The position numbers and the translations under genes were made by a program. From positions 1 to 59,875 of the forward strand of contig JAFQVY010000021.1 of NCBI GenBank assembly GCA_017407755.1: DNA of 59,875 nucleotides. The letters run 5' to 3'. The notes under the pieces were generated by a model. It worked only from the letters and a program-made list of their open reading frames with translations, did no database searches and had not been told where the DNA came from. Source of the DNA: Clostridia bacterium (GTDB lineage Bacteria; Bacillota; Clostridia; Oscillospirales; Acutalibacteraceae). This document shows positions 40,136 through 56,960 of the stretch, in pieces. The first letter of the stretch is position 1; the number at the start of each line of letters is the position of its first letter.

Positions 40136-40225
40136 TTAGTTAAAGTTAATTTTTTATTCATAATTTGATTTTTAAAAGGTATATAATATAAAATGTCGAA
40201 ATTTGTTTTTTTAAGGAAGATGTCT

Positions 40226-41482
40226 ATGCCAAGCAGAAAACCGCCTGTTGACTTTACAAAACAGATGAAAAAGGAATATACAATTATCGCTCCCGATATT
40301 TTTCCTACTCACATGGAAATTTTACAGGAGCTTTTTAAGATGCAGGGATATAATCTTTTTGTTGCTCACTACGAGGGCAAAGAGGTTATTGACACAGGCC
40401 TTAAATATATGCATAACGATATGTGTTACCCTGCAATCTGCTCCACAGGCCAGCAGATTTATGCCTTGCAGTGCGGTGATTTTGACCCCGATAAATGCGC
40501 ACTTATCCAGTTTCAGACCGGCGGCGGATGCCGTGCATCCAACTATATCTGGCTTCTGAGAAAGGCTCTTAAAAATATGGGTTGGGGACACATTCCGGTT
40601 ATTTCTTTAAGCCTGACAGGCATTGAAAAATATTCTGGCTTTAAATTTACTTTGCCTTTAATGCTCAAGGCAATTATGGCGATTATCTACGGCGATATGC
40701 TTATGCTTTTAAAAAATCAGACCACTCCCTATGAGGTGAACAAGGGCGACACAAGAAAGGTTCTTGACAAATGGGTGGCTGAAATTGTTTCTCAGTTTAA
40801 AGAAAATAAGGGTCTTACCCCTAAAAAGTTCAGAGAAAATTTAGAGGGCATTGCCAAGGATTTTTCAAATATTAAAATTGAAAAAACACCTAAAATCAAG
40901 GTTGGTATTGTTGGCGAGATTTACGTTAAGTTTTCTTCCTTTGGCAATAACGGACTTGAAAAGTTTTTAGAGTCACAGGGCGTTGAGTATATGGTGCCCG
41001 GCGTGCTTGGATTCTTTCAGTATTGCTTTTCAAATATCGAAACCGACTATAAATACTACGGCGGCAACTGGTTTGTTAAGCAAGGCGGCAAAATTGCAGA
41101 ATACGCCGCCGCAAAGATTGAGGGTATTATGCTTGATGTATTAAAGGCTTATCCTCAGTTTACATCACCTGCTCCTTTTTCACATATCAAAGAGCTTGGC
41201 GAAAAGGTAATTGACCGAGGCGTAAAAATGGGTGAGGGGTGGCTGCTTCCTGCAGAAACTGCCGAGCTTATCGAAAAAGGGTATTCAAACGTTATCTGTA
41301 CCCAGCCCTTTGGTTGCCTGCCTAATCATATAGTGGGCAAGGGGGTTATCCGCAGTATGCGCGAAATTTACCCCTCAGCCAATATTTTTCCCATAGATTT
41401 TGATGCAGGCGCCTCAAAGGTTAATCAGGAAAACCGCATCAAGCTTATGCTTTCTGTGGCAGAAGAGGAGATGAACAGATGA
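40226..41482 (+). CDS. 2-hydroxyacyl-CoA dehydratase-like protein (HgdB/COG3581 type)
   Basis: 418 residues from ATG 40226, which has AAGGAAG 6 nt upstream. The ATG at 40193 lies only 6 nt after a TATAAT (40182-40187), too close to be translated from that promoter. Cys-containing loops MHNDMCYPAICSTGQQ, QTGGGCRASNY and ICTQPFGCLPNH resemble the iron-sulfur-binding parts of dehydratase subunits, and IDFDAGASKVNQENR ends the fold. In related enzymes these proteins receive an electron from an activase. The real substrate of this very widespread gene pair is unknown. It overlaps the activase gene by 4 nt (ATGA). Confidence 0.82.
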   Translation: MPSRKPPVDFTKQMKKEYTIIAPDIFPTHMEILQELFKMQGYNLFVAHYEGKEVIDTGLKYMHNDMCYPAICSTGQQIYALQCGDFDPDKCALIQFQTGGGCRASNYIWLLRKALKNMGWGHIPVISLSLTGIEKYSGFKFTLPLMLKAIMAIIYGDMLMLLKNQTTPYEVNKGDTRKVLDKWVAEIVSQFKENKGLTPKKFRENLEGIAKDFSNIKIEKTPKIKVGIVGEIYVKFSSFGNNGLEKFLESQGVEYMVPGVLGFFQYCFSNIETDYKYYGGNWFVKQGGKIAEYAAAKIEGIMLDVLKAYPQFTSPAPFSHIKELGEKVIDRGVKMGEGWLLPAETAELIEKGYSNVICTQPFGCLPNHIVGKGVIRSMREIYPSANIFPIDFDAGASKVNQENRIKLMLSVAEEEMNR

Positions 41483-44409
41483 AGCGAATAGGTCTTGACG
41501 TAGGCTCTACCACCGTAAAATGTGTGGTGTTGGATGAAGAAGGCAAAATAGTTTTTTCTACATATAAACGCCATTTTTCAAAAATTTCAGAGATGACCTC
41601 AGAGCTTTTAAAAGAAGTTTTGAAAGCCACAGGTGATGAAGAAATGAGCATTGCCCTGTCAGGCTCAGCAGGCATGGGCATGGCAAACGATTTGAGTATT
41701 CCTTTTGTGCAGGAGGTTTATGCCACAAGAAATGCAGTCAAAAAGCTGTCACCTCTGACCGATGTTGTTATTGAGCTTGGCGGTGAAGATGCAAAAATTC
41801 TTTTCCTTACAGGTGGTCTTGAGGTAAGGATGAACGGTACCTGTGCAGGAGGTACAGGTGCATTTATTGACCAGATGGCTTCGCTTTTAAACGTCACTAC
41901 CGAAGACGTAAACGAGCTTGCAAAAGGCAAGGAAAAGGTATATACCATTGCCTCCCGTTGCGGCGTTTTTGCAAAAACCGACGTTCAGCCTCTTATTAAT
42001 CAGGGTGCAAGAAAAGAGGATATAAGTGCAAGTATTTTCTACGCTGTAGTTAACCAGACCGTCGGCGGACTTGCTCAGGGCAGAGAGATTAAGGGCAATA
42101 TCCTTTACTTAGGCGGCCCTCTTACCTTTATGTCAGAGCTGAGAAAAAGCTTTGACGATGTGCTGAAACTTAAGGGTGCCTTGCCCGAAAATTCGCTTTA
42201 TTTCGTAGCACTTGGTGCGGCTTATTCTTCTGCCGCAGAGGCAAAAAACATCAAAATCCTTGCAAACACCATAGAAACCTACAGTGCAAAAGCAGGATAT
42301 ACAAGCTGCCGCAGACTTTTTGAATCGGAGCAGGAGTACGCTGAATTTACAGAGCGTCACAAAAAAGCGTCAGAGGGAATTAAAGAGTTAAGCGAGCCCG
42401 AAAGTGAGATGTACCTCGGTATTGATGCAGGCTCTACAACCGTAAAATGCGTGCTTTGCTCAGAGTCGGGCGACATTTTCCGCCCTTACTATACCTCAAA
42501 CAGCGGCAATCCTGTGCCTGTTATTAAAGAATATCTCATAAATCTTTTCAAGGATTATCCCGATTTAAAAATTAAATCCTCTGCCGTAACAGGCTATGGC
42601 GAGGATATTATTAAAAGCGCTTTTCACGTAGACTACGGCATTGTTGAAACCATTGCCCACTATACCGCCGCTAAAAAGTTCAAGCCAAATGTTGACTTCA
42701 TTCTTGATATAGGCGGACAGGATATCAAATGCTTTAAAATCCGAAACGGTGCAATAGATAACATTTTCTTAAACGAAGCCTGTTCCTCAGGTTGCGGCTC
42801 TTTCTTGCAGACCTTTGCCCACGCCTTAGGCTACAGCGTTGAAGAATTTGCACGTCTGGGTCTTTTTGCCGACAGACCTGTTGATTTGGGCTCACGTTGC
42901 ACGGTGTTTATGAATAGCTCCGTTAAGCAGGCTCAAAAGGACGGTGCAACGGTTGAGAATATCTCAGCAGGACTTTCCACAAGCGTAGTTAAAAATGCAC
43001 TTTACAAGGTTATACGCTGTGCAAGAGCCGAAACTTTGGGCGAAAATATCGTAGTTCAGGGCGGTACATTTTTAAGTGATGCGGTGCTCAGAGTTTTTGA
43101 ACAGGAAATCGGCAGAGAGGTTATCAGACCTGCATATTCTGCTATTATGGGTGCTTACGGTGCCGCTTTGTATAGCCTTTCCAAGTATAAGAAAAAAAGA
43201 AGAGAAACCACGCTTATCTCACTTTCTCAGCTTCTTGACTTTAAGCATAGCGTAAAGGCGATTACCTGCCACGGTTGTGAAAACAGATGCCGTCTCACTG
43301 TAAACACATTTGGCGAAGGCGATAAGTATATTGCAGGCAACCGTTGCGACAAACCTTTGCAAAATGCAAATGGTGTAACTGTCTATAATCTTTACGAATA
43401 TAAAAACAAGCTTTTGGACTCTTTCAGAGAGCTTCCTCTAAAGGAAAATAAGCCTACTATAGGACTCCCCTTAGGACTTAATATGTACGAGCTTTTGCCT
43501 TTCTGGGCAACGTTTTTCAGCTCTCTTGGCTTTAACGTCAAGGTTTCGCCTAAGTCTAACCGCAAGCTTTATCTTAAGGGTCAGCATACAATTCCCTCTG
43601 ACACTGTCTGTTATCCTGCCAAGCTTATGCACGGGCATATTGAGGCTCTTATAGATGAAGGCGTTGATGCGCTTTTTTACCCTGATATGACCTATAACCT
43701 TGACGAGGGCTTGGGGGACAATCACTTCAACTGCCCTGTTGTTGCTTACTATCCTCAGGTTATCAAGTCAAATGTTAAGGCAATAGAAAATACGAAGTTT
43801 ATTTCTGATTTTATAGGACTTCACGACAAAAAGCAGTTCGAGGTACATATTGCTCCTATTTTAGAGAAATATTTTGGCAAATTTGATAAAAAAGATATAA
43901 AAAACGCCAGCGAAAAGGCTTACGAGGCATATTATAAATTCCTTAGCGACGTAAGAGCAAAGGCTCAGGAGTATCTTGAAATAGCTGAAAAAGAAGACTT
44001 GCCCGTAATAGTATTGTCGGGAAGACCCTATCACATCGACCCCGAAATAAACCACGGCATAGATTCGCTTATTGCAAGCGAGGGTGCAGTTGTAATTACC
44101 GAGGACTCTGTCAGCGACAGATATAAAAAGTTCAGAGTAACTGTGAGAAATCAGTGGACATACCACGCTCGTCTTTATGCCGCCGCAAAGTTTGTGGCAG
44201 AGCATAAAAGGGGACACAAGGTTAATCTGGTTCAGCTTGTATCCTTTGGTTGCGGTGTTGACGCCGTTACTACCGATGAAGCTCGCTCCATTGTAGAAGA
44301 AAGCGGGAAAATTTATACTCAGCTTAAAATTGACGAAATTTCCAATATGGGTGCTGTTAGAATCCGTATCCGCAGTCTGCTTTCGGCGGCGGCTGACAGA
44401 AATGATTAA
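41479..44409 (+). CDS. Double BadF/BcrA-type activase with C-terminal DUF2229 (COG1924 + COG3580)
   Basis: 976 residues. Two ASKHA ATPase domains: the first (about 1-255) has GLDVGSTTVKCVVLD, GTCAGGTGAF and SRCGVFAKTD, where the two Cys match the Fe-S ligands of HgdC; the second (about 312-575) has GIDAGSTTVKCVLC, NEACSSGCGSF and SRCTVFMNSS. A CxxCxxxC-like segment TCHGCENRCRL lies near 598. A DUF2229 domain (about 655-870) and an HgdB-like end follow. Together with the upstream gene it would form a complete activase/dehydratase-type electron-transfer system. In other clostridia the two parts are often one long protein. Substrate unknown. Confidence 0.85.
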   Translation: MKRIGLDVGSTTVKCVVLDEEGKIVFSTYKRHFSKISEMTSELLKEVLKATGDEEMSIALSGSAGMGMANDLSIPFVQEVYATRNAVKKLSPLTDVVIELGGEDAKILFLTGGLEVRMNGTCAGGTGAFIDQMASLLNVTTEDVNELAKGKEKVYTIASRCGVFAKTDVQPLINQGARKEDISASIFYAVVNQTVGGLAQGREIKGNILYLGGPLTFMSELRKSFDDVLKLKGALPENSLYFVALGAAYSSAAEAKNIKILANTIETYSAKAGYTSCRRLFESEQEYAEFTERHKKASEGIKELSEPESEMYLGIDAGSTTVKCVLCSESGDIFRPYYTSNSGNPVPVIKEYLINLFKDYPDLKIKSSAVTGYGEDIIKSAFHVDYGIVETIAHYTAAKKFKPNVDFILDIGGQDIKCFKIRNGAIDNIFLNEACSSGCGSFLQTFAHALGYSVEEFARLGLFADRPVDLGSRCTVFMNSSVKQAQKDGATVENISAGLSTSVVKNALYKVIRCARAETLGENIVVQGGTFLSDAVLRVFEQEIGREVIRPAYSAIMGAYGAALYSLSKYKKKRRETTLISLSQLLDFKHSVKAITCHGCENRCRLTVNTFGEGDKYIAGNRCDKPLQNANGVTVYNLYEYKNKLLDSFRELPLKENKPTIGLPLGLNMYELLPFWATFFSSLGFNVKVSPKSNRKLYLKGQHTIPSDTVCYPAKLMHGHIEALIDEGVDALFYPDMTYNLDEGLGDNHFNCPVVAYYPQVIKSNVKAIENTKFISDFIGLHDKKQFEVHIAPILEKYFGKFDKKDIKNASEKAYEAYYKFLSDVRAKAQEYLEIAEKEDLPVIVLSGRPYHIDPEINHGIDSLIASEGAVVITEDSVSDRYKKFRVTVRNQWTYHARLYAAAKFVAEHKRGHKVNLVQLVSFGCGVDAVTTDEARSIVEESGKIYTQLKIDEISNMGAVRIRIRSLLSAAADRND

Positions 44410-45955: not shown

Positions 45956-45985
45956 TTGACAATTGACTTGTAAATGGAGTAAAAT
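45956..45985 (+). promoter_or_regulatory. Promoter of the T-box-controlled operon
   Basis: TTGACA (45956-45961), 18-nt spacer, TAAAAT (45980-45985). The start near 45992 gives a leader of about 300 nt. The stretch 45863-45955 before it shows nothing else I can name. Confidence 0.75.
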
Positions 45986-46018
45986 AAATCTAATTTATTT
46001 CATAATATATAAGTATAA

Positions 46019-46260
46019 ATGCAGTGACGGAGAATAGCTTTTCCAAATAGTTTTACAGAGAGCCCGTGTATGCTGAAATCGGGCAAACTTAAGTTTAGCT
46101 TCTCACTCCTGAGCAGGGATACTCAAAGGTCAGGTCTTAGTAGGTATTCTCGGTTTGCCGCCGTTAATGGCAAAGAGTGGTTGTCTTTTAGACAGCAATA
46201 CGGGTGGTACCGCGGTTTATTATCGTCCCGAAGCAGTGCTTCAGGGGCGTTATTTTTTTA
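46019..46260 (+). ncRNA. T-box riboswitch leader, specifier probably CUC (Leu)
   Basis: Hallmarks in order: GACGGAG (stem I base), AGAGAGCC-CG...GCTGAAA-TCGGGC (AG bulge and apical loop, 46055-46084), a stem III-like hairpin (TTGTCTTTTAGACAGCAA), the T-box sequence GGGTGGTACCGCGG (46202-46215) and a terminator (CGTCCC-GAAGC/GCTTC-AGGGGCG, 46225-46250, then a T-run). GGAG (46029-46032) pairs with CTCC (46106-46109) and GCT (46037-46039) with AGC (46097-46099). This leaves TTCTCA in the specifier loop, where CTC followed by A (46102-46105) is the best codon. Uncharged tRNA-Leu would then allow read-through into the downstream genes. Confidence 0.9.
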
Positions 46261-46289
46261 TATTTCATTTAGCAAGGAGACAAGAGAAA

Positions 46290-47696
46290 ATGAAACAGGT
46301 AAGAATTTCTGACGTAACTTTAAGGGAGGGCACAACCCACAAGGGCGCAACCTTAAGCTTCAAGGAAAAAATCGAGATTGCTAAGCTTCTTGACAAGCTT
46401 AACACCGACGTTATTGAAATGGCGGCTATTGAAAATACTGCCACAGATACTCTCCTGCTAAAAACTCTATCTTCTCTCCTTAAAAAATCTCAGCTTGCAG
46501 TAGTTGCAGGTACCACAAAAGAACAGATTGACAAGACGGTTTCTGCTTTAAGTGAAGCAAAAAGCAAGAGACTTATTGTTTCGCTTCCCACATCCAATGT
46601 GAGAATGGAATACATAAGTCACTTTAAGCCTGCTGCAATGCTTGAAAAAATCAAAGAGCTTGTGTCTTATGCCGCAAGTGTTTGCGATTTTGTTGAGTTT
46701 GAGGCAGAGGACGCTACAAGAAGCGAAAAAGACTTTTTGGCAAAGGCTATAAATACAGCCATAAAAGCAGGTGCAAAGGCAGTTACAATTTGCGACACAG
46801 CCTCAGCTACTGTTCCTGATGAGCTTGAAGCTCTTATTAACGGGCTTAATGAGGCAGTCCCCGGTCTTAAGGAAGTTGAGCTTGGCATAGCCGCTTACAA
46901 TGAGCTTGGTATGGCAAACGCCTGTGCACTTTCTGCATTTAAGTGCGGTGCGGTTTATGTAAAAACCGCTATGGCAAACACTAAGCTTAATTCTACCGAA
47001 AGCTTTGTTCACCTTATCCGTTTAAGAGGCGAGCAGGCGGGTATAGGCGTTGGTCTTAATGTAACCGAGCTTGTAAGAACTGCAACCCAGATTAAAACAA
47101 TTGCCAAATCCCGTCGCAGTGACACAACACCCTTTGATAACAAAATTGGCGAGGGTAAGGATGTTGTTATAAGCAAGGATAGCGATATTTCCGAATTAAG
47201 CAAGGCTATTAAAGAACTTGGCTACACACTTACAGATGATGATACCGCAAAGGTTTACGAAGCATTCCTTTTAACCGCCGCAAAAAAAGAGGTTGGTGCT
47301 AAGGAGCTTGAGGCTATTGTTGCTTCCGAAGCTTTACAGGTGCCTCCCACATATAAACTCATAAGCTATGCAGTTAACTGCAGTAATGTTATTGCTCCTA
47401 CTGCACATATTGTGGTAGAGAAAAAAGGCGAGGAGCTTTGCGGACTTTCCACAGGTGACGGCCCAATTGATGCCGCACTTTTAGCATTAGAGCAGATTGT
47501 AGGCTGTCACTACGAGCTTGATGATTTCCAGATTCAGGCAGTAACAGAGGGCAGAGAGGCAATGGGCGAGGCTATTATCAAGCTTCGTTTTGAGGGCGTG
47601 CTTTACTCAGGCCGCGGTATTTCTACCGACATTATGGGTGCAAGCATTAAGGCTTACCTCAACGCTCTTAACAAAATTGTATACGAGGAGGACTAA
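46290..47696 (+). CDS. LeuA-like protein with altered active site and LeuA regulatory domain
   Basis: 468 residues from ATG 46290 (AAGGAG upstream); the longer frame from 46155 runs through the T-box. Residues 1-270 form an HMGL/2-isopropylmalate synthase-like barrel (SDVTLREGTTHKG, FVEFEAEDATRSEKDFL, TICDTASATVPDE). The LeuA allosteric/dimer domain is at about 355-466 (IVVEKKGEELCGLSTGDGPI). Key changes: TLRD is TLRE, the metal-binding HxHND is AAYNE, and the GxGERAGN loop is missing. A standard 2-isopropylmalate synthase activity is therefore doubtful. The T-box tuned to leucine and the leucine-sensing domain link it to branched-chain metabolism. The stop is 2 nt before the next start. Confidence 0.8.
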   Translation: MKQVRISDVTLREGTTHKGATLSFKEKIEIAKLLDKLNTDVIEMAAIENTATDTLLLKTLSSLLKKSQLAVVAGTTKEQIDKTVSALSEAKSKRLIVSLPTSNVRMEYISHFKPAAMLEKIKELVSYAASVCDFVEFEAEDATRSEKDFLAKAINTAIKAGAKAVTICDTASATVPDELEALINGLNEAVPGLKEVELGIAAYNELGMANACALSAFKCGAVYVKTAMANTKLNSTESFVHLIRLRGEQAGIGVGLNVTELVRTATQIKTIAKSRRSDTTPFDNKIGEGKDVVISKDSDISELSKAIKELGYTLTDDDTAKVYEAFLLTAAKKEVGAKELEAIVASEALQVPPTYKLISYAVNCSNVIAPTAHIVVEKKGEELCGLSTGDGPIDAALLALEQIVGCHYELDDFQIQAVTEGREAMGEAIIKLRFEGVLYSGRGISTDIMGASIKAYLNALNKIVYEED

Positions 47697-47698
47697 GA

Positions 47699-50218
47699 GT
47701 GAAATTATCTTTCTCTACAAACGGTTGGAACGGCTTTACTTGGGAAGACTTTTACACCATGGCAAAGGATTTGGGCTTTGAGGGCATTGAAATCCACGAC
47801 GTAAGCAATCAGGCTTTTCAGGGTGTAAACGGTCCTTTAAAGAAAGAAAACCTTTCCAAAACCGCCAGAAAATTAGCTAATTTAGGACTTTCTCTGCCTT
47901 GTGTGAATGTTCTTTCAGATATTTCAAAGGCAGAAAATAAAGACGATAATATAACAGAGATTATTGAGCATATTGAGCTTGCAAAAAAGCTTAATTGCCC
48001 TTATGTACGACTCAGAGCAGGGGAGGAAAGCACAAGCGAAACCGATGACACCTGTGCTGAGGTGCTTCGTAAAATTAAGGACTTTGCAGAGGAAACAGGA
48101 GTAGTAGTCCTTGTGGAAACTGTTGGCGTTTATGCTGATACAAAGCGTCTTTCAAACCTTTTAAACCGCTTTGCCTGTGACAACATTTCGGCACTTTGGG
48201 ATTTTAACCACCCCTACAGAAACGGCGAAAGCCCCGAAACCACTATCACAAACTTAGGTGCTTATGTAAAGCATGTTCATATCAAAGACTCTGCCGCTGT
48301 GGACGGCTCTTTTGAGTACCGTCTTATGGGCGAGGGCGATATGCCCATTGACCGAATGATGCTCTCTCTTCGCTCAATTAACTACGAAGGCTTTATTTCT
48401 TTCGAGTGGCGAAGCGAGTGGATTGAAGAAATCGGCGACGCAGGTATTGTGTTCCCGCATTTTATCAATTATATGAGCCGCTTTGAAAGTGCAAAAACTA
48501 CCACCGATACCCTTTACGACAACAAGGCTAAAACAGGTAAGTTTGTATGGAAAAAGGAAACCCTTATAACCAAAACCTTCCCTGAGGTTTTAGATAAAAT
48601 GGCTGACCTTTTCCCTGACCAGTACGCTTTCAGATATACAACCCTTGACTATACCCGTACATACTCACAGTTCAGAGACGATGTTGACGAGTTTGCCCGT
48701 ACTCTTATTGCTCTTGGCGTAAAAGCAGGTGATAAGGTTGCTATCTGGGCAACAAATATTCCCCAGTGGTTTGTTACTTTCTGGGCAACAACAAAAATCG
48801 GTGCGGTTCTGGTTACTGTAAACACAGCTTACAAAATCCACGAGGCTGAGTACCTTTTCCGCCAGTCTGATACTCATACACTGGTTATGATTGAAAATAA
48901 CCGCGACTCCGACTATGCCGCAATTATTCAGGAGCTTTGCCCTGAGCTTAAAAACACTAAGCCCGGTGAACCTTTACATTCAAGAAGACTTCCTTTCCTG
49001 AGAAACGTTATTACCGTAGGTTTTTCAATGCAGGGTTGTCTTACCTGGGAGCAGTCCTTGGGACTTTCCTCAAAAGTTCCTCAGGAGGAAGTAAGAAGAC
49101 GTGCTTCTTTAATTGACCCTAACGACGTGTGTAATATGCAGTACACCTCAGGAACCACAGGCTTCCCCAAGGGTGTAATGCTTACTCATTACAATATCGT
49201 AAATAACGGCAAGTGCATCGGCGACAGAATGGATCTTTCCACCGCCGACAGAATGATGATTCAGGTGCCTATGTTCCATTGCTTCGGAATGGTGCTTTCT
49301 ATGACAGCGGCAATGACTCACGGCGCAACTCTTTCACCGATTCCTTACTTCTCACCCAAGAATTCCTTGGCTTGCATAAATAACGAAAGAATCACCTGTT
49401 TTCACGGTGTTCCTACAATGTTTATTGCTCTTTTGGAGCACGAGGACTTTGAAAAAACCGACTTTTCTTATGTGCGCACAGGTATTATGGCAGGTTCACC
49501 CTGTCCTATAGCTGTTATGGAAGACGTAGTTAAGAAGATGAATATGTCTGAGATTACCATTGTTTTCGGTCAGACAGAGTCATCCCCCGGTTGCACAATG
49601 AGCTCAACTGATGACCCCCTTGACGTACGAGTGGGCACCGTTGGCAGACCCTTGCCCCAGATTGAGTGTAAAATCGTTGACCCCGAAACAGGGGAGGAAA
49701 TGCCCGACGGTGAGATTGGCGAGTTTGTGGCACGTGGCTACAACATTATGAAGGGCTACTATAAAATGCCTCAGGCAACTGCGGCGGCTATTGATAGTGA
49801 AGGCTGGCTTCACACGGGAGACCTTGCCTGCAGAACTTTAGACGGCAACTTCCGTATTACAGGCAGACTTAAGGATATGATTATCCGCGGCGGTGAAAAT
49901 ATTTACCCCAAAGAAATCGAGGAGTTTATTTATACTCACCCGTCTGTTAGCGACGTGCAGGTTATCGGTGTCCCCGACGAGCAGTACGGCGAAGAAATTA
50001 TGGCTTGCATTATTCTTAAAGAGGGCGAAACCCTTACTGAAGCCGACGTCAAGAAGTATGTTCTTGACCACATGGCAAAGCATAAGGTGCCTAAATACAT
50101 TGATTTTGTTGAAGGCTTCCCTATGAACGATGCAGGTAAAATCCTCAAGTACAAAATGCGTGAGGAAGCAGTAAAGAAATACAATTTATCTAAAGCAGAT
50201 AAAATAGAAACAGCTTAA
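47699..50218 (+). CDS. Fusion: sugar-isomerase-like TIM barrel + AMP-forming acyl-CoA synthetase
   Basis: 839 residues starting with GTG (GAGGAGG upstream). Residues 1-265 are an AP-endonuclease-2/xylose-isomerase-like barrel with an intact set of metal ligands: LVETVG (Glu), LWDFNHPY (Asp, His), HVHIKD (His) and FEWRSEW (Glu). Residues about 290-830 are an ANL acyl-CoA ligase with YTSGTTGFPKGVMLTH, FGQTES, HTGDLA, GRLKDMIIRGGENIYP and the C-terminal catalytic Lys in AGKILKYKM. It would activate a fatty acid to acyl-CoA. The role of the barrel is unknown. It lies between the LeuA-like gene and ilvE under the T-box, so branched short-chain acids are plausible substrates. Confidence 0.85.
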   Translation: MKLSFSTNGWNGFTWEDFYTMAKDLGFEGIEIHDVSNQAFQGVNGPLKKENLSKTARKLANLGLSLPCVNVLSDISKAENKDDNITEIIEHIELAKKLNCPYVRLRAGEESTSETDDTCAEVLRKIKDFAEETGVVVLVETVGVYADTKRLSNLLNRFACDNISALWDFNHPYRNGESPETTITNLGAYVKHVHIKDSAAVDGSFEYRLMGEGDMPIDRMMLSLRSINYEGFISFEWRSEWIEEIGDAGIVFPHFINYMSRFESAKTTTDTLYDNKAKTGKFVWKKETLITKTFPEVLDKMADLFPDQYAFRYTTLDYTRTYSQFRDDVDEFARTLIALGVKAGDKVAIWATNIPQWFVTFWATTKIGAVLVTVNTAYKIHEAEYLFRQSDTHTLVMIENNRDSDYAAIIQELCPELKNTKPGEPLHSRRLPFLRNVITVGFSMQGCLTWEQSLGLSSKVPQEEVRRRASLIDPNDVCNMQYTSGTTGFPKGVMLTHYNIVNNGKCIGDRMDLSTADRMMIQVPMFHCFGMVLSMTAAMTHGATLSPIPYFSPKNSLACINNERITCFHGVPTMFIALLEHEDFEKTDFSYVRTGIMAGSPCPIAVMEDVVKKMNMSEITIVFGQTESSPGCTMSSTDDPLDVRVGTVGRPLPQIECKIVDPETGEEMPDGEIGEFVARGYNIMKGYYKMPQATAAAIDSEGWLHTGDLACRTLDGNFRITGRLKDMIIRGGENIYPKEIEEFIYTHPSVSDVQVIGVPDEQYGEEIMACIILKEGETLTEADVKKYVLDHMAKHKVPKYIDFVEGFPMNDAGKILKYKMREEAVKKYNLSKADKIETA

Positions 50219-50231
50219 AGGAGAGAATATT

Positions 50232-51296
50232 ATGCTGGATATTAAAATCACCAGAACTCAGACTCCTAAAGAGAAGCCTGACGAAACAAAACTCGGTTTT
50301 GGTAAAATCTTTACCGACCACATGTTTATTATGGACTACACAGAGGGCAAGGGTTGGCATGACCCCAGAATTGAGCCCTACCACAATTTAAGCCTTTCAC
50401 CTGCATCAATGGTTTTCCATTACGGTCAGGAAATGTTTGAAGGCTTAAAGGCTTACCGTGGTGCAGACGGAAAGGCTCGTCTTTTCCGTCCCGATATGAA
50501 CGGTAAGCGTACAAACGACACAAACAAGCGTCTTTGCATTCCTGAGCTTCCCGTTGAAGATTTCGTTGAAGCAGTAAAGGCTATTGTAAAGGTAGACGAA
50601 GACTGGATTCCCACTGCACCCTCAACCTCTCTTTACATCCGCCCCTTTATTATTGCAACTGACGACTTCCTTGGTGTTGCTCCCTCTAAGACATATATGT
50701 TCATCATCATCCTTTCACCCTCAGGTGCTTACTACGAGAGCGGTCTTGCTCCTGTTGGCATCTGGATTGAAGACGACTATGTTCGCGCTGTAAAGGGCGG
50801 TATCGGCTTCGCAAAAACAGGCGGTAACTACGCTGCATCCTTAGCCGCTCAGGTTAAGGCTCACGACGGCGGTTACAGTCAGGTTCTCTGGCTTGACGGC
50901 GTTGAGAGAAAGTACATCGAAGAAGTTGGTGCTATGAACATCTTCTTCAAAATCGACGGCAAGGTTGTTACTCCTGCTCTCTCAGGTTCAATCTTACCCG
51001 GTATCACAAGAAACTCTGTTATCACCCTTTGTAAGGATTGGGGACTTGAGGTAGAGGAAAGAAAGATTTCCGTTGACGAGCTTATTGAAGCTCAGAAGAG
51101 CGGCAAATTAGAGGAATGCTTCGGTTCAGGTACAGCGGCAGTTATTTCTCCTGTCGGTACACTCAGATACAAGGACGATGTAATGCAGATTGGCGACGGC
51201 ACAACAGGCCAGCTCAGCCAGAAGCTTTATGATACAGTTACAGGCATTCAGAACGGTACAGTAGAGGATAAATTCGGTTGGGTTGTGAATGTATGA
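50232..51296 (+). CDS. ilvE: Branched-chain amino acid aminotransferase
   Basis: 354 residues, class IV PLP aminotransferase of the long BCAT type. Key parts: HYGQEMFEGLKAYRG (about 59-73), YIRPFIIATD, VKGGIGFAKTGGNYAAS with the PLP Lys (about 198), YIEEVGAMNIFF, LSGSILPGITRNSVI and CFGSGTAAVISPVG. It interconverts leucine, isoleucine and valine with their 2-oxoacids using glutamate/2-oxoglutarate. RBS AAAGGAG; 13 nt after the fusion gene. In this operon it would carry out the last step of branched-chain amino acid formation. Confidence 0.96.
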   Translation: MLDIKITRTQTPKEKPDETKLGFGKIFTDHMFIMDYTEGKGWHDPRIEPYHNLSLSPASMVFHYGQEMFEGLKAYRGADGKARLFRPDMNGKRTNDTNKRLCIPELPVEDFVEAVKAIVKVDEDWIPTAPSTSLYIRPFIIATDDFLGVAPSKTYMFIIILSPSGAYYESGLAPVGIWIEDDYVRAVKGGIGFAKTGGNYAASLAAQVKAHDGGYSQVLWLDGVERKYIEEVGAMNIFFKIDGKVVTPALSGSILPGITRNSVITLCKDWGLEVEERKISVDELIEAQKSGKLEECFGSGTAAVISPVGTLRYKDDVMQIGDGTTGQLSQKLYDTVTGIQNGTVEDKFGWVVNV

Positions 51297-51961
51297 TAAA
51301 AAAACCTAAAAGAATTACCCTTTTTGCAGGGCACTACGGCTCAGGTAAAACCAATATCGCCGTAAATTTCGCTTTAAGACTTAAAGAAATGGGCAAAGAG
51401 GTGGAAATTGCCGACCTTGACATTGTTAATCCTTATTACCGCACAAAGGATAGCGAGAAAGAGCTGAACGCCGCCGGCATTAAGGTTATATCCTCAGAGT
51501 TTGCCAATTCAAACGTAGACTTTCCCGCAATGCCCGGTGAGGCATACTCAATAATTGACAATAAAGACGTGTTTGCCGTTTGCGATGTAGGCGGTGACGA
51601 CAGAGGTGCCTATGCCTTAGGACGTTTTCGCGAGGGCATAATGGCTGAGGATTACGAGATGTATCTGGTTATAAACAAGTATCGCCCTCTTACAAGTGAC
51701 GTTGACTCTTTAGCAGAAATTAAAGAGGAAATCGAAGCGGCGGCAGGTATTCCTTTTACCGCAATTGTAAATAACTCAAATTTGGGCAGAGAAACTACCG
51801 CCGAAGCGGTACTTGATTCTCTTGCTTATGCAAATGAAGCTTCACTTCGTTTAGGCTTACCCATAAAGCTTACAACAGTTTATGAGCCTGTATATGAAGA
51901 ATTAAAAGACAAGATAGAAAACTTGATGCCATTAGTTTTGCAACAGCGAAACTTTTGGTAA
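51293..51961 (+). CDS. P-loop ATPase of the MinD/CobQ-like group
   Basis: 222 residues. Walker A is GHYGSGKTNIAVNFALRL (about 12-29), followed by IADLDIVNPYYRTKD (switch region) and CDVGGDDRGAYALGRF. The fold is MinD/CobB-CobQ-like, but its partner is unknown. Its start overlaps the ilvE stop (ATGA), so translation is coupled. Genes of this kind often stand beside ferredoxin oxidoreductases in Clostridia; a role in cofactor or complex assembly is a guess. It is the last gene before a new promoter at 51974. Confidence 0.75.
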   Translation: MIKKPKRITLFAGHYGSGKTNIAVNFALRLKEMGKEVEIADLDIVNPYYRTKDSEKELNAAGIKVISSEFANSNVDFPAMPGEAYSIIDNKDVFAVCDVGGDDRGAYALGRFREGIMAEDYEMYLVINKYRPLTSDVDSLAEIKEEIEAAAGIPFTAIVNNSNLGRETTAEAVLDSLAYANEASLRLGLPIKLTTVYEPVYEELKDKIENLMPLVLQQRNFW

Positions 51962-51973
51962 TTTAAAAGTATT

Positions 51974-52002
51974 TTGACAAAAGAGTGATAGTGTTTTATC
52001 AT
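51974..52002 (+). promoter_or_regulatory. Internal promoter for the 2-oxoacid:ferredoxin oxidoreductase genes
   Basis: TTGACA (51974-51979), 17-nt spacer, TATCAT (51997-52002). No terminator separates it from the upstream operon, so T-box read-through can also reach these genes. Confidence 0.75.
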
Positions 52003-52032
52003 AAATACAGATTACTCTAAGGAGGAAATGAT

Positions 52033-52236
52033 ATGGCAAAGGTTACTTTTGACAAAGACAGATGCAAAGGCTGTTCTCTTTGTGTAGGTGTATGCCCCAA
52101 GGGCATTGTTGCACTCTCAGATGAGCTTAATGCAAAGGGTTATCATCCCGCACAGGTTACAGAGCAGGATAAATGCATCGGTTGTGCATTCTGTGCTACA
52201 ATGTGTCCCGACTGTGTAATTACAGTTGAGAAGTAA
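52033..52236 (+). CDS. 2x[4Fe-4S] ferredoxin-type delta subunit of 2-oxoacid oxidoreductase
   Basis: 67 residues with two clusters, CKGCSLCVGVCP (about 11-22) and CIGCAFCATMCP (about 48-59), each CxxCxxCxxxCP. It passes electrons between the TPP enzyme and free ferredoxin. RBS AAGGAGG. It lies 13 nt before the alpha subunit gene. Confidence 0.92.
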   Translation: MAKVTFDKDRCKGCSLCVGVCPKGIVALSDELNAKGYHPAQVTEQDKCIGCAFCATMCPDCVITVEK

Positions 52237-52249
52237 GGAGGAAGAGTAA

Positions 52250-53311
52250 ATGGCAGATAAAGTTTTAATGAAAGGTAACGAGGCTATGGCTGAAGCCGCC
52301 ATTATGGCAGGCTGCCGTCACTACTTAGGTTACCCAATTACACCTCAGACAGAAATCGCCGCTTATATGAGCAAGCGTATGCCTAAAGTAGGCGGTACAT
52401 TCTTACAGGCAGAAAGCGAAATTTCCGCTATCAATATGGTTATCGGTGTAGCTTCCGCAGGTAAAAGAGCTATGACGTCAAGCTCAAGCCCCGGTATCTC
52501 TCTTAAGGGCGAGGGCCTTTCTTACCTTGCAGGTTGCGACCTTCCTGCTTTTGTTGTAAACGTTCAGCGTGGCGGTCCCGGTCTTGGCGGTATTCAGCCT
52601 TCTCAGGCAGACTATTTTCAGGCTACCCGTGGTACCTCCCACGGTGACTACCACATGATTGTTCTTGCTCCTAATTCAGTTCAGGAAATGGTAAATCTTA
52701 CCTTCCAGGGCTTTGATATGGCAGACAAGTACAGAATGACTGTTATGCTTCTTGCAGACGGCACAATGGGCCAGATGATGGAGCCTGTTTCCCTTGATAT
52801 GGGCGAGGTTAAATCTTACGATAAGCCTTGGGCAGTTACAGGCACTAACTGCGAAAGAGAGCATAATATCGTTAACTCACTTTTCTTAAAGCCTGAACTT
52901 TTAGAGAAAAAGAACTTCGAGCGTTTTGAAAAGTATAATTATATTGAAGAAAACGAAGCACTCTATGAGGAGTACCTTATGGATGATGCCGAGGTTTGTA
53001 TCGTAGCTTACGGTATCTCTGCAAGAATTGCAAAGAACGCAATTGATGCAGCAAGAGCTAAGGGCATCAAGGTTGGTATGTTCAGACCTATCACCCTCTG
53101 GCCTTTCCCCAAGAAGGAGATAAGAGCTATTGCCGATAAGGTTAACTCCTTTATTAGCGTTGAGCTTTCTATGGGTCAGCTTATTGAGGACGTTAAGCTC
53201 TACACAGAGTGCACAAAGCCTGTGTACCTCTGCAACCGCACAGGTGGTATGATTATGACACCCGAAGAGGTTCTCCAAAAAATCGAAGAAGCAGTAGGAG
53301 GTAATAAATAA
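52250..53311 (+). CDS. vorB: Branched-chain 2-oxoacid:ferredoxin oxidoreductase, alpha subunit
   Basis: 353 residues. LMKGNEAMAEAAIMAGCRHYLGYPITPQTEI (named by GNEAMAEAA and GYPITPQ, about 8-36), AESEISAINMVIG, TSSSSPGISL and QRGGPGLGGIQPSQADYFQA match the VorB/KorA type. The subunit forms the pyrimidine-binding half of the TPP enzyme. In the oxidative direction it makes acyl-CoA, CO2 and reduced ferredoxin; the reaction is reversible. VOR versus KOR cannot be fully settled by eye, but ilvE and two acyl-CoA synthetases beside it favour branched-chain substrates. Its stop overlaps the beta start (TAATG). Confidence 0.88.
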   Translation: MADKVLMKGNEAMAEAAIMAGCRHYLGYPITPQTEIAAYMSKRMPKVGGTFLQAESEISAINMVIGVASAGKRAMTSSSSPGISLKGEGLSYLAGCDLPAFVVNVQRGGPGLGGIQPSQADYFQATRGTSHGDYHMIVLAPNSVQEMVNLTFQGFDMADKYRMTVMLLADGTMGQMMEPVSLDMGEVKSYDKPWAVTGTNCEREHNIVNSLFLKPELLEKKNFERFEKYNYIEENEALYEEYLMDDAEVCIVAYGISARIAKNAIDAARAKGIKVGMFRPITLWPFPKKEIRAIADKVNSFISVELSMGQLIEDVKLYTECTKPVYLCNRTGGMIMTPEEVLQKIEEAVGGNK

Positions 53312-54066
53312 TGGCAGTTGTATTTGAGAAGCCCAAGGCATTAACAGACGCTACACTTCACTATTGCCCCGGCTGTACTCACGGTATTATTCACCGCCTT
53401 GTTGCCGAGGTTTTAGATGAGCTTGGCATTCAGGGCAAAACAGTAGGTATTGCATCCGTTGGTTGCTCCGTTATGTCCTACGATTATTTTGACGTTGATA
53501 TGGTTCAGGCGGCTCACGGCAGAGCACCTGCAGTTGCTACAGGTGTTAAGCGTGCAAACCCTGAGAACATTGTCTTCACATATCAGGGCGACGGCGACCT
53601 TGCCGCTATCGGTACTGCTGAGACAGTTCACTCTGCAGCAAGAGGCGAAAACATTACAATCATCTTTGTTAATAACGCTATCTACGGTATGACAGGCGGT
53701 CAGATGGCTCCCACAACTCTCCCCGGACAGGTTACCCAGACTTCTCCTTACGGCAGAGACACAAACCACGTTGGTTTCCCCTTAAAGGTTTGTGAGCTTC
53801 TTTCTAACGTTGATGGTGCTACATACCTTGAGCGTGTTGCTGTTAACAACGTTAAGAATATCAAGAACGCTAAAAAGGCTATTAAAAAAGCTTTTACATA
53901 TCAGACAGAGGGTAAGGGCTTTACTCTTATTGAGGTGCTCTCAACTTGTCCTACAAACTGGGGTCTTACACCCGTAAACGCTCTCAAGTGGTTAGAGGAA
54001 AATATGATTCCTTACTATCCCTTGGGTGTATACAAGGATAAATACGCAGAGGAGGCAGAAAAGTAA
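53311..54066 (+). CDS. 2-oxoacid:ferredoxin oxidoreductase, beta (TPP-binding) subunit
   Basis: 251 residues. HYCPGCTHGIIHRL (about 17-30), VGCSVMSYDYFDVD, AAHGRAPAVATG and the TPP/Mg2+ motif QGDGDLAAIGTAETVHSA ... IFVNNAIYGMTGGQMAPTT are diagnostic. It holds thiamine diphosphate at the active site. Start and stop overlap those of the neighbouring subunits by one base each, so alpha, beta and gamma are translated as one unit. Confidence 0.93.
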   Translation: MAVVFEKPKALTDATLHYCPGCTHGIIHRLVAEVLDELGIQGKTVGIASVGCSVMSYDYFDVDMVQAAHGRAPAVATGVKRANPENIVFTYQGDGDLAAIGTAETVHSAARGENITIIFVNNAIYGMTGGQMAPTTLPGQVTQTSPYGRDTNHVGFPLKVCELLSNVDGATYLERVAVNNVKNIKNAKKAIKKAFTYQTEGKGFTLIEVLSTCPTNWGLTPVNALKWLEENMIPYYPLGVYKDKYAEEAEK

Positions 54067-54605
54067 TGACAACTACAAATATGCTTATTGCAGGCTTCGG
54101 CGGTCAGGGTATCCTTTTTACAGGTAAGTTTTTAGCTTACGAAGGACTTTTAGAGGGCAGAGAGGTAAGCTGGCTTCCCTCTTACGGCCCTGAAATGCGA
54201 GGCGGTACTGCAAACTGCTCTGTTATCCTTTCCGACATTCCCGTAGGTTCTCCCATTGTGTCCAATCCCGACACACTTTTAGTTATGAACTTACCTTCTC
54301 TTGATAAGTACGAGGATGCAACTGTTGCTGGCGGCAAAATATTTGTTGACTCTGCACTTATCGGCAGAAAGGTAAACCGTACTGATGTAGAGGCTTACTA
54401 CATCCCCGCAACTAAGCTTGCAAGTGACGAAGGCCTTACAGGTCTTGCAAATATGATTCTTTTAGGCTTCGTTATCAAGCACACAAACGTTATTCCTTTT
54501 GAGAATATCGAGCGTGCTTTACAGAAGGTTGTTCCTGCTTCAAAGCAGCACCTTATTGAGTCTAACAGAAAAGCTCTTGAGCTTGGCTACAACTACGCCG
54601 AGTAA
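54066..54605 (+). CDS. 2-oxoacid:ferredoxin oxidoreductase, gamma subunit
   Basis: 179 residues. [17 protein letters not shown] (about 8-24), [19 protein letters not shown] and SLDKYE match the POR/KOR gamma family, which binds the CoA side. It completes a four-gene delta-alpha-beta-gamma complex (52033-54605). Confidence 0.93.
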
Positions 54606-54634
54606 TAAAAATTTAAAGTAAGGAGATTATCGCT

Positions 54635-55186
54635 ATGACCGAACAGTTAAAAGAAATCGGCACAAGACTTGAAGAACTCAGAGACATTTGCGGTGTATCT
54701 GCAGAAGAAATGGCTGAAAAGCTTGATATGAGCGTCGAGGAATACCGTAAATACGAAGAAGGCCAGCTTGACTATTCTTTCAGCTTCCTTTATAATGCCG
54801 CATCAGTCCTTGGTGTGGAGGTCGTCGATATTATGAGCGGTGATTCTCCCAAGCTTTCAACCTGCGTTGTTACAAAGAAGGACCAGGGCATTGTGGTTAA
54901 AAGAAATCAGTCTTATAACTATATGCACCTCGCCTTTACCTTCCGCAATAAAAATGCAGAGCCTATGATTGTTACTACTGAGCCTACAAACAAGGTTCCC
55001 GTAATGCACACTCACGACGGTCAGGAGTTTGACTACATTCTTTCAGGCACAATGAAGCTTTATATTGAGGACATTTCCTATGAGCTTTCAAAGGGTGACA
55101 GTGTTTACTACGATTCTTCTAAGCCTCACTCCTTTAAAGCAATAGGCGACAAGCCTCTTAAATTCTTAGCAGTAGTGATTAAGTAA
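54635..55186 (+). CDS. XRE-cupin regulator
   Basis: 183 residues. An N-terminal HTH-3 domain (about 8-66) is followed by a cupin 2 domain (about 105-180: VPVMHTHDGQEFDYILSGTMKLYIED...DSVYYDSSKPHSF). The metal-type His/His/Glu and late His are present. Such proteins often lie next to acyl-CoA synthetase genes and may sense a small acid or acyl-CoA. Here it sits between the oxidoreductase gamma gene and an acyl-CoA synthetase, 15 nt from the latter. RBS AAGGAG. Confidence 0.88.
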   Translation: MTEQLKEIGTRLEELRDICGVSAEEMAEKLDMSVEEYRKYEEGQLDYSFSFLYNAASVLGVEVVDIMSGDSPKLSTCVVTKKDQGIVVKRNQSYNYMHLAFTFRNKNAEPMIVTTEPTNKVPVMHTHDGQEFDYILSGTMKLYIEDISYELSKGDSVYYDSSKPHSFKAIGDKPLKFLAVVIK

Positions 55187-55201
55187 TACGGAGACGTTGT
55201 T

Positions 55202-56929
55202 ATGGCAATTTATGAAGAATATTTAGGCAGGGACAGAGACTCCTTCGAGTCTTATGAGGACTGCTGTAAAAATTATAAGCTTACATGGAAGGCTGACTTT
55301 AACTTCGCTTATGATGTTATTGACAAGCTTGCCAAAGAAAAGCCCGACAAGCTGGCACTTCTTTATGTAGCTAATGACGGAACTGAAAAACGCTTCACTT
55401 TCCGTGATATGATGCTTTGGTCAAATAAGGCGGCAAACTGCCTTAAAAAGCTTGGTATCAAAAAGGGCGACAGAGTACTTTTGGTGCTTCGCAGAAGCTA
55501 CCTTTTCTGGATTACTCTTTTGGGTATGCACAAAATCGGTGCTATTGTTGTACAGGCTAATGATATGCTTAAAACAGGCGAGTACATTTACCGTTGTAAT
55601 GTTGGCGGAATTTCCGCAGTTATCCTTACCGGTCACGGCAAATGCACCGAGATTTACGACGAGGGCGAGGGCGAATACGAGCATGTTCGCCTTAAGATGG
55701 TTACCGAGCACAAAAAAGCAGGTGAGCATTGGATAGACTTCGAAGAAGAGCTTGAAAAAGCAAGCGACAAGTGGACACGCCCCACAGGCAGAGCCGATAC
55801 AAAGGCAACTGACCCCATGATGATGTGCTTTAGTTCAGGTACAACAGGCTATCCTAAGATGATTGTCCACGATTTTTCTTATCCCTTAGGCCACATTGCG
55901 ACAGGCGTTTTCTGGCACAGGGTTGTTGACGGAGGTTTGCATTTCACAATTTCCGACACAGGCTGGATGAAGTCCGTTTGGGGCAAGCTTTATGGTCAGT
56001 GGTTTGGCGAGTCTGCAATCCTTGTTTACGATTTTGAGCGTTTCGTACCTAAAGATATACTTAGCGTTTTAGAGAAATATAAGGTTACTACCTTCTGTGT
56101 TCCTCCCACAATGTACCGCTTTATTTTGCAGGAGGACGTTGCTTCTTACGACCTTTCCTCAATTACACATTGCTGTACTGCTGGCGAGGCTTTGCCCTCT
56201 GATGTTTTCCTTAAGTGGAAAGAGATTACAGGTCTTGAGATTTACGAAGGCTTCGGCCAGAGCGAAACTCCTGTTTGTATCGGTACTTTCTATCCTTGGA
56301 ACAAGCCTGTTCCCGGTTCTATGGGTCTGCCTGCTCCCGGCTTTAACATTACTGTAAGAGATTTAGACGGCGATGAGTGTAAGCAGGGTATTACAGGCGA
56401 GGTTTGCATTAAGGCACCTACAATGGCTAGTCGTCCCAGAGGACTTCTTTGCAACTATAACTGGAGCAAGGAAGATACCAAGGAAAAATGGTATGCAGGA
56501 TATTACCACACAGGCGACACTGCTTATAGAGATGAGCAGGGCTACTTCCATTATGTAGGAAGAAACGACGACGTTATTAAATCTTCAGGCTATCGTATCG
56601 GCCCCTTTGAAGTTGAAAGCGTTCTTTTAGAGCACCCTGCAGTTTTAGAGGCTGCCGTTACCGCTTATCCTCACGAAACAAGAGGCCAGATTGTAAAGGC
56701 TAATCTTGTACTCAGAGAAGGATATAAGCCTTCTGACGAGCTTACAGAAGAGCTTCAGCAGTATGTAAAGCAGAATACTGCTCCTTATAAATACCCCAGA
56801 ATCGTTGAGTATTTCGAGGCTTTGCCCAAGACATTCTCAGGCAAAATCCGCCGAGTAGAAATTCGCGACAGGGATATTGAAAAGTATAAGGCAGAAAAGC
56901 GTGCTTTAGAAAAATTCACATCCGACTAA
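55202..56929 (+). CDS. AMP-forming acyl-CoA synthetase (medium/short branched-chain type)
   Basis: 575 residues, ANL family. FSSGTTGYPKMIVHD (about 210-224), DTGWMKSVWGKLYGQW, EGFGQSET, YYHTGDTAYRDEQGYFHYVGRNDDVIKSSGYRIGPFEVE (key parts HTGD, GRNDD, GYRIGP) and the catalytic Lys in PKTFSGKIRR resemble MACS-type medium-chain acyl-CoA synthetases, which accept short and branched acids in several bacteria. It forms acyl-CoA, AMP and PPi. Last gene of the oxidoreductase transcript; terminator follows. Together with the fusion at 47699, two acyl activators flank the oxidoreductase. Confidence 0.9.
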   Translation: MAIYEEYLGRDRDSFESYEDCCKNYKLTWKADFNFAYDVIDKLAKEKPDKLALLYVANDGTEKRFTFRDMMLWSNKAANCLKKLGIKKGDRVLLVLRRSYLFWITLLGMHKIGAIVVQANDMLKTGEYIYRCNVGGISAVILTGHGKCTEIYDEGEGEYEHVRLKMVTEHKKAGEHWIDFEEELEKASDKWTRPTGRADTKATDPMMMCFSSGTTGYPKMIVHDFSYPLGHIATGVFWHRVVDGGLHFTISDTGWMKSVWGKLYGQWFGESAILVYDFERFVPKDILSVLEKYKVTTFCVPPTMYRFILQEDVASYDLSSITHCCTAGEALPSDVFLKWKEITGLEIYEGFGQSETPVCIGTFYPWNKPVPGSMGLPAPGFNITVRDLDGDECKQGITGEVCIKAPTMASRPRGLLCNYNWSKEDTKEKWYAGYYHTGDTAYRDEQGYFHYVGRNDDVIKSSGYRIGPFEVESVLLEHPAVLEAAVTAYPHETRGQIVKANLVLREGYKPSDELTEELQQYVKQNTAPYKYPRIVEYFEALPKTFSGKIRRVEIRDRDIEKYKAEKRALEKFTSD

Positions 56930-56933
56930 AATT

Positions 56934-56960
56934 AAAGGGTCTGTTTTACAGACCCTTTTT
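56934..56960 (+). terminator. Terminator of the acyl-CoA/2-oxoacid operon
   Basis: AAAGGGTCTG and CAGACCCTTT around TTTTA, followed by TT. Confidence 0.88.

Follow-up and report, generated by a model that had tools for sequence, protein, structure and literature searches.

The window analysed here, the whole of a 59,875-nt stretch of DNA from a gut bacterium of the Clostridia, is contig 12 of a host genome of 1.56 Mb in 22 contigs that is 94% complete. The region under study (45956..56958, + strand) holds a T-box leader followed by 10 genes on the same strand in the order leuAL, fus, ilvE, ATPase, ferredoxin, VOR alpha, VOR beta, VOR gamma, XRE-cupin and MbcS-like ligase, where VOR denotes a 2-oxoacid:ferredoxin oxidoreductase. 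The genes overlap or are spaced by less than 30 nt, except for one 71-nt gap before the ferredoxin gene. The region is very likely a leucine-responsive operon that uses scavenged branched short-chain fatty acids to make branched-chain amino acids.

A promoter-like site (TTGACA-18-TAAAAT, 45956..45985; 11/12 matches in a consensus scan) lies ahead of the T-box leader (46015..46233), which matches RF00230 at 122.5 bits against a gathering threshold of 93 (E 1.2e-26). The specifier codon, read from its column in the Rfam alignment and with stem I pairing scripts, is CUC (leucine; 46102..46104) with A as the next base. It is followed by the T-box sequence GGGTGGTACCGCG of the antiterminator (46202..46214), by an intrinsic terminator hairpin with a U run (46224..46249; fold -15.7 kcal/mol, z -4.8) that overlaps the 3' part of the antiterminator, and by the start codon at 46290, which is the order of elements in a T-box leader. 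The leader probably responds to uncharged tRNA-Leu with the anticodon GAG.

The first gene, leuAL (46290..47696), encodes a LeuA-like protein with a degenerate HMGL/isopropylmalate synthase barrel and a conserved LeuA leucine-binding domain, as seen from HMGL-like and LeuA_dimer matches and from alignments. The second, fus (47699..50218), encodes a xylose-isomerase-like TIM barrel (AP_endonuc_2, PF01261) fused to an AMP-dependent acyl-CoA ligase (PF00501 and PF13193). These are followed by the branched-chain aminotransferase IlvE (50232..51296; NF009897, 510 bits, cut-off 307) and by a ParA/CbiA-like P-loop ATPase (51293..51961) with weak matches, all below the Pfam cut-offs. The alpha, beta, gamma and delta subunits of VOR are all present by profile matches: the 2x[4Fe-4S] ferredoxin-type (delta) subunit (52033..52236), the alpha subunit (52250..53311) of the VorB family (3-methyl-2-oxobutanoate dehydrogenase; NF005507, 531 bits, cut-off 399), the beta subunit binding thiamine pyrophosphate (53311..54066; PF02775) and the gamma subunit (54066..54605; PF01558), with beta and gamma staying under the specific curated cut-offs. 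The setting of VOR beside IlvE and Leu/Val/Ile T-boxes would fit a branched-chain substrate. The ATPase adjoins VOR in other clusters also, in varying gene orders, and may, as a guess, serve the iron-sulfur clusters of VOR. The XRE-cupin protein (54635..55186; profile matches and tree) is found in other loci fused to the N-terminus of MbcS-like ligases. The last gene (55202..56929) encodes a short branched acyl-CoA ligase, proposed to act on isobutyrate or 2-methylbutyrate, whose best NCBIfam family is MbcS, in agreement with the tree. It scores 412.6 against 850 bits and does not reach the equivalog cut-off, and is therefore named MbcS-like only.

A symmetric terminator-like hairpin (56934..56958) ends the unit; the scan lists it for the - strand only, and we read the inverted repeat as serving the + strand too. 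Between 44400 and 57300, 17 terminator-like sites were counted on both strands against 13.3 expected (sd 3.7), a number near chance, so that no site inside the unit is convincing. A second promoter-like site (TTGACA-17-TATCAT, 51974..52002, + strand; consensus scan) lies in the 71-nt gap between the ATPase and ferredoxin genes. It is absent from the two nearest relatives (L008 and L009), which rules it out as a general feature; there the gap is short (17 and 46 nt), and a single transcript is thus the likelier ancestral state. The original prediction, an earlier reading of this sequence, agrees with these results in its gene list (LeuA-like protein, ligase fusion, IlvE, ATPase, four-subunit VOR, XRE-cupin and second ligase), in its T-box with a probable CUC specifier and in placing no terminator before 56934. 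Its internal promoter exists in the window and is not conserved in the two nearest relatives.

The LeuA-like protein and its partner ligase

By means of fus, 80 loci were fetched, 50 with leuAL and 30 with fus alone (solo fus). The leuAL alignment comprises 48 rows, namely the window protein and 47 of the 50 proteins (three being too short), and was compared with 14 LeuA proteins of the working type from the same order. The best match of the window protein to a LeuA model reaches 312 bits against the 532 of that model, and no LeuA model's cut-off is attained; its reading frame is open, as are all 48 frames over at least 85% of their length. In the HxH metal site the first His is present in 0/48 and the second in 1/48 leuAL proteins, with no row having both; the GER of the GERAGN loop is gapped in 48/48; and in the TLRDG motif TL is kept and RDG is not (R in 20/48). 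Each of these is invariant in the 14 LeuA proteins. The metal-site stretch reads AAYNE in the window protein, compared with HCHDD in 3ewb and HCHND in 3rmj, and the HxH/HCHDD positions are presumably metal ligands.

The LeuA domain shows the opposite trend. Among the leuAL proteins, mean pairwise identity rises from 0.42 (barrel) to 0.685 (LeuA domain), whereas in the 14 LeuA proteins it falls from 0.63 to 0.49, so that the gradient of conservation is reversed. The LeuA_dimer domain of the window protein scores 110.5 bits with PF08502 (gathering threshold 24.9). G389, D390, G391 and P392 of the GDGP loop fall in columns conserved to at least 97% over the 48 rows, and the GxGxSTD region is conserved too; we take both to lie in the leucine pocket. 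Of 17 LeuA-domain columns that are invariant in the 14 LeuA proteins, 8 are kept in at least 90% of the leuAL proteins and 5 in at most 10%, so that the domain has a signature of its own as well, which counts against plain domain retention. A search of the LeuA domain against a solved leucine-bound structure gave no significant match to which the binding residues could be mapped.

Judged by these residues, the LeuA-like protein is very probably no working synthase but catalytically dead, and for that reason is not a step of the pathway. The residue loss, together with the failure to find LeuB or LeuC in the host genome (see below), rules it out as a pathway enzyme. The original prediction had named it LeuA-like, which holds for its HMGL-like/LeuA_dimer ancestry and not for the residues that define a working synthase, HxH and GER, which are lost.

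In all 50 leuAL loci fus follows leuAL on the same strand as the next among the genes scored, and the two are 2 nt apart in the window. The simplest role for a protein with this pattern of conservation would be that of a leucine sensor, with fus probably as its partner, and we infer that LeuAL inhibits fus. There is about an even chance that leuAL is an inactive isopropylmalate synthase retained as a leucine sensor in its own right, with a decaying catalytic barrel and a strongly constrained leucine-binding domain, which gives feedback inhibition to an unrelated enzyme, the two-headed isovaleryl-CoA ligase fus. If so, the Leu T-box and the pseudo-LeuA would place transcription and enzyme activity both under leucine where the classical pathway is gone, while the ligases for isobutyrate and 2-methylbutyrate would have parallel circuits with Val and Ile T-boxes, and leuAL would be an unusual protein in which the allosteric domain has outlasted the catalytic domain that it belonged to.

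The ligase fus is proposed to be an isovaleryl-CoA ligase. The residues that we take, by family, to be the metal site of its TIM barrel (D168, H171, H194 and E236) are each present in 30/30 solo fus proteins. In the 50 fus proteins partnered by leuAL they are retained in 34, 20, 45 and 32, respectively, and the ligase stays conserved; since the barrel site loosens while the ligase is conserved, the ligase appears to be the part needed in partnered fus. Comparison of the TIM barrel with the PDB gave weak matches only (Art22, MJ1311), none of which assigns a function. Solo fus occurs in Clostridia such as Candidatus Formimonas (with a Leu T-box) and Anaerobacterium (no T-box detected), examples being L024, L033, L035 and L045; a named cultured strain with solo fus, Anaerobacterium chartisolvens DSM 27016, has IlvC. 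Among the loci taken from genome contigs, the four nearest relatives of the window by fus identity are metagenome-assembled genomes that carry the labels Ruminococcus or Lachnospiraceae and come from samples of goat, roe deer, yak and horse. Among plasmids, 82 records match the fusion at E 1e-100, none of them covering 80% of the query.

The classical pathway and T-box specifiers across genomes

The host genome has no match to IlvB (acetohydroxyacid synthase, TIGR00118) or IlvD (PF00920). For IlvC, the search gave one 25-bit match only, to a protein that is no ketol-acid reductoisomerase, compared with about 265 bits for most true IlvC proteins of genus mates. The sole Aconitase-family and Iso_dh proteins, encoded at C16:8031-11124, were considered as a hidden LeuC/LeuB pair and rejected, as the first scores as aconitate hydratase (997 bits against a cut-off of 612) and the second as NADP-isocitrate dehydrogenase (668 bits against 335); LeuC and LeuB are thus likewise not found. 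The five enzyme-family searches were each positive in 14/14 control genomes. The check for missing ilv and leu genes that had been suggested earlier therefore turned out as predicted for IlvB, IlvC, IlvD, LeuB and LeuC; no separate search was made for LeuD.

Within the genus (18 genomes, host included; true IlvC taken as more than 150 bits, with a partial match of 157.8 bits in G013 counted as present), full-length leuAL is found in 7/18 genomes (G000, G004, G011, G012, G014, G016 and G017), and the genomes with true IlvC are precisely the remaining 11 (Fisher 3e-5). VOR beta, at an identity of at least 76%, is present in 6/7 leuAL genomes and 0/11 IlvC genomes of the genus. In the whole set of relatives (29 genomes), VOR occurs in 12/13 genomes without IlvC compared with 2/16 with IlvC (p 2e-5). 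In a MutS2 tree G010, which has IlvC, is the sister of the host genome, and the six remaining leuAL genomes form one clade, so that these p-values overstate independence and at least two switches are implied. The two leuAL lineages of the tree also differ in gene order: in 5/6 genus-mate loci mbcS (1-2 copies seen), ATPase, ferredoxin, VOR and ilvE come first, followed by leuAL and fus. T-boxes stand before leuAL in 6/6 of these loci and before the mbcS nearest to VOR in 4/6, the others being G014, which has no VOR part, and G004, where the contig ends.

Across the order, IlvD is missing in 27/34 leuAL-positive genomes compared with 55/163 others (p 1.6e-6). These counts rest on the matches listed, with the leuAL and IlvD searches taken to cover the same 197 genomes. 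Two genomes with a partial leuAL (G142 and G130), neither of them among the IlvD matches listed, were counted as leuAL-negative, and counting them as positive gives 29/36; seven leuAL-positive genomes were counted as having IlvD, two of which (G055 and G115) have weaker, paralogue-like matches only. In the genomes of the first 50 of the 80 loci (L008-L057; true IlvC taken as more than 200 bits), IlvC is found in 5/34 with leuAL and 12/16 with solo fus (p 5e-5). The locus and genus sets overlap, as L031 is probably G011:C186 and L086 probably G004:C84. The parts of the operon are widespread and modular and not peculiar to the host genome.

Upstream T-boxes could be scored in 45 leuAL and 29 solo-fus loci, 6 of the 80 loci being too short upstream. 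Within 400 nt upstream, leuAL has a T-box motif in 35/45 loci and solo fus in 18/29, compared with 1/940 for other open reading frames of at least 200 aa in the same loci; the motif rule used for leader extraction missed two T-boxes of the host (L004 and L005). Four loci (L080, L082, L085 and L087) carry operons of the window type for which the motif scans gave no T-box ahead of leuAL. Both inspection by eye and pairing scripts were used to read the specifiers, and the counts give the first pick of the later script, an earlier and looser one having returned several candidates per leader. On four host leaders used as controls, with genes named by eye, the later script assigned Cys to cysE/cysS, Phe to pheS and Thr to thrS, and it missed the Ile leader at first pick.

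For the leuAL leaders, window included (n=36), the first pick is Leu in 29 (CTC 28, CTG 1). The script failed in the remaining 7 (L010, L011, L013, L017, L019, L064 and L065), where CTC was found by eye at the usual place; in L017 it is also the second script pick, with equal score. The 18 solo-fus leaders give Leu in 16 (CTC 13, CTG 3), and of the two script failures L075 reads CTC by eye and with the earlier script and L042 could not be read. The T-boxes before MbcS-type ligases elsewhere (n=8) have a different specificity: six read GTA (Val; L014, L031, L032, L039, L063 and L065), L069 reads ATC (Ile), and L017 gives GTG (Val) as first and ATC as second pick, ATC being preferred because it adjoins the GAGC anchor. 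In seven of the eight cases the ligase is an XRE-cupin::MbcS fusion whose gene precedes VOR genes; that of L063 is cut by the contig end, on a locus without VOR. An ATPase-VOR unit in L016 has a CTC (Leu) specifier.

The host genome itself carries an Ile T-box (AUC; 81 bits, below gathering) on contig 13 (21608-24216; L092:3609-6217) before a 764-residue XRE-cupin::MbcS-like fusion, the halves of which are 40% (XRE-cupin, over 184 residues) and 51% (MbcS-like ligase, over 523) identical to the window proteins. This fusion is likely the 2-methylbutyrate arm of the same metabolism. A further T-box of the host (L091:8476-10402, - strand, contig 16; 111 bits) stands before an AMP-dependent acyl-CoA ligase named by eye; its specifier is ACC or, one base earlier, UAC (Tyr), and the enzyme may be an aryl-acid salvage ligase.

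The natural reading is that MbcS types serve Val and Ile and fus serves Leu, with VOR and IlvE shared. Staphylococcus aureus MbcS prefers isobutyrate and 2-methylbutyrate, which, together with the specifier pattern, leaves isovalerate to fus. The placing of Leu T-boxes at leuAL/fus and of Val/Ile T-boxes at MbcS-type ligases argues for synthesis, as had been predicted, and is joined by VOR accompanying leuAL in 6/7 genomes of the genus.

The proposed pathway and its alternatives

In the proposed mechanism, leucine shortage would raise uncharged tRNA-Leu (GAG), which would bring about T-box antitermination and production of the ligases, VOR and IlvE. The fus ligase would convert isovalerate to isovaleryl-CoA, and the MbcS-like ligase would activate isobutyrate and/or 2-methylbutyrate. 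VOR, working reductively with reduced ferredoxin and CO2, would carboxylate isovaleryl-CoA to 2-oxoisocaproate, and IlvE would aminate the 2-oxo acids to Leu, Val or Ile; through the shared VOR and IlvE, isobutyrate would yield valine and 2-methylbutyrate isoleucine. The LeuA-like protein most likely would sense leucine and restrain fus, which would bring back the end-product feedback that disappeared along with the classical pathway. Both VOR and IlvE work reversibly, so that the carboxylation direction is allowed. The reductive carboxylation put forward in the original prediction is thus strongly supported at the level of sequence by the missing ilv/leu genes, the complementarity of leuAL and IlvC and the T-box specifiers.

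Several observations weigh against this pathway. The MbcS-like ligase, VOR beta and VOR gamma all miss curated cut-offs, and in the host genome expression of VOR may escape the T-box by way of the internal promoter. An upstream T-box is missing for leuAL in 10/45 loci and for solo fus in 11/29. The pattern in the genus may go back to just two events, and reciprocity is loose beyond the genus, where the 5/34 leuAL-positive genomes with IlvC include that of L009, which has the whole operon. VOR is visible in only 20/50 leuAL loci within the DNA fetched. One genome of the genus (G014, 84% complete) has leuAL-fus, with neither IlvC nor VOR found; its VOR may lie in the missing part or be truly absent, loss at a contig edge having been ruled out since leuAL-fus has a different location there and the 2.9 kb before it hold unrelated genes. 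Finally, 6% of the host genome may be missing, but it is unlikely that five separate genes all fall within it.

The alternative that survives best, and which we consider rather unlikely, keeps the pathway and assigns fus to a different reaction linked to leucine, such as one with a hydroxy- or oxo-acid as substrate. The putative metal site, intact in 30 solo fus proteins, points to a real isomerase-like activity, and solo fus is mostly found in genomes that keep IlvC (12/16). However, the site loosens in leuAL-partnered fus while the ligase is conserved, and the MbcS-type ligases are tied to Val/Ile T-boxes, with S. aureus MbcS being poor on isovalerate in the available text of PMC10026030.

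It is very unlikely that the operon runs oxidatively, with leucine being transaminated, converted by VOR to isovaleryl-CoA and released as the acid for ATP or reduced ferredoxin. The reversibility of VOR and IlvE would permit this, and peptide fermenters use such enzymes oxidatively. However, induction by T-boxes is a response to uncharged tRNA, and these genes are repeatedly preceded by T-boxes for Leu, Val and Ile; in the genus, every genome with leuAL or VOR is one in which IlvC is missing; and AMP-forming ligases spend ATP, which makes them poor means of gaining it. A slimmer chance belongs to the supply of branched acyl-CoAs to membrane branched-chain fatty acids, as with S. aureus MbcS, with VOR and IlvE being incidental. 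The MbcS homology of the second ligase favours it, but IlvE and VOR stay together in the unit even where the gene order differs, the T-box control is amino-acid specific and the classical amino-acid pathway was not found in the host genome. That the LeuA-like protein is instead active as an isopropylmalate synthase, with VOR making 2-oxoisovalerate from isobutyrate and LeuA plus LeuBCD then making leucine, is the least likely alternative, as its family-level match (312 bits) and intact frame are set against the shortfall from 532 bits, the metal His residues absent in 48/48 (first) and 47/48 (second) proteins, a GER gapped in all and a host genome in which neither LeuB nor LeuC was found.

Elsewhere in the window, two genes resembling 2-hydroxyacyl-CoA dehydratase activases lie upstream of the operon (40193-44409), the second identified by TIGR00241 (250 bits) and the first by eye. 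An antiporter gene and a terminator stand between them and the operon, and the second activase-like gene and the antiporter keep their place in L008 and L009. Dockerin-like repeat proteins, recognised by eye, are encoded at 4158-5357 and 36314-38956 of the window and at L092:6264-8222. They suggest that the host degrades fibre with a cellulosome-type system, which would be in keeping with the branched-acid requirement of ruminococci.

Comparison with known systems

T-box controlled ilv/leu operons are known in Firmicutes. The operon described here shares with them a Leu T-box governing leucine supply and a LeuA relative as first gene, but differs in that IlvE is the sole classical enzyme and the LeuA relative is degenerate. 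Compared with LeuA itself, leuAL shares the HMGL plus LeuA_dimer architecture, the GDGP loop and the GxGxSTD region, whereas its metal site and substrate loop are lost and its conservation gradient is reversed.

The formation of leucine from isovalerate by ruminococci and in the rumen is reported by Allison (1962, 1966), as cited in the available text of PMC7356843. The proposed net chemistry of branched acid, carboxylation and amination is the same, and several of the closest relatives are ruminant gut metagenome-assembled genomes. The account in that text is physiological, whereas the present analysis names a genetic unit together with its ligases and T-box control, and a candidate for the leucine sensor. 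In methanogens, 2-methylbutyrate and isovalerate give Ile and Leu, according to the available text of PMC10658910; branched volatile fatty acids are the shared precursors, but the present system is bacterial, uses AMP-forming ligases and is T-box controlled. S. aureus MbcS, the best-matching family of the second ligase, scavenges short branched acids, activating 2-methylbutyrate and isobutyrate and isovalerate poorly (PMC10026030, available text). It feeds membrane fatty acids, whereas the ligase of the window sits with VOR and IlvE and has relatives that are fused to XRE-cupin domains under Val/Ile T-boxes.

Among the literature matches listed, which cover few subscription journals, no such T-box operon, VOR/ligase set or pseudo-LeuA was found, which is weak evidence of novelty; a term search of the available text of PMC2494555 and PMC3766115 gave no match for ferredoxin, acyl-CoA or isovalerate. 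The claim that this is not a described unit stands as far as the literature searched is concerned.

The rumen chemistry of the 1960s helps to explain the need of fibre degraders for branched volatile fatty acids, and the unit gives candidate genes for every step along with a T-box specifier rule for which ligase serves which acid. As a marker, leuAL/fus may predict uncultured gut species that depend on branched acids made by others, which could bear on branched-acid feeding of cattle, on media for uncultured relatives and on models of amino-acid cross-feeding, which might score such genomes as plain auxotrophs. Set beside these known systems, the chemistry is known, and in our judgement it is the genetic unit, with a new regulatory part, that is new.

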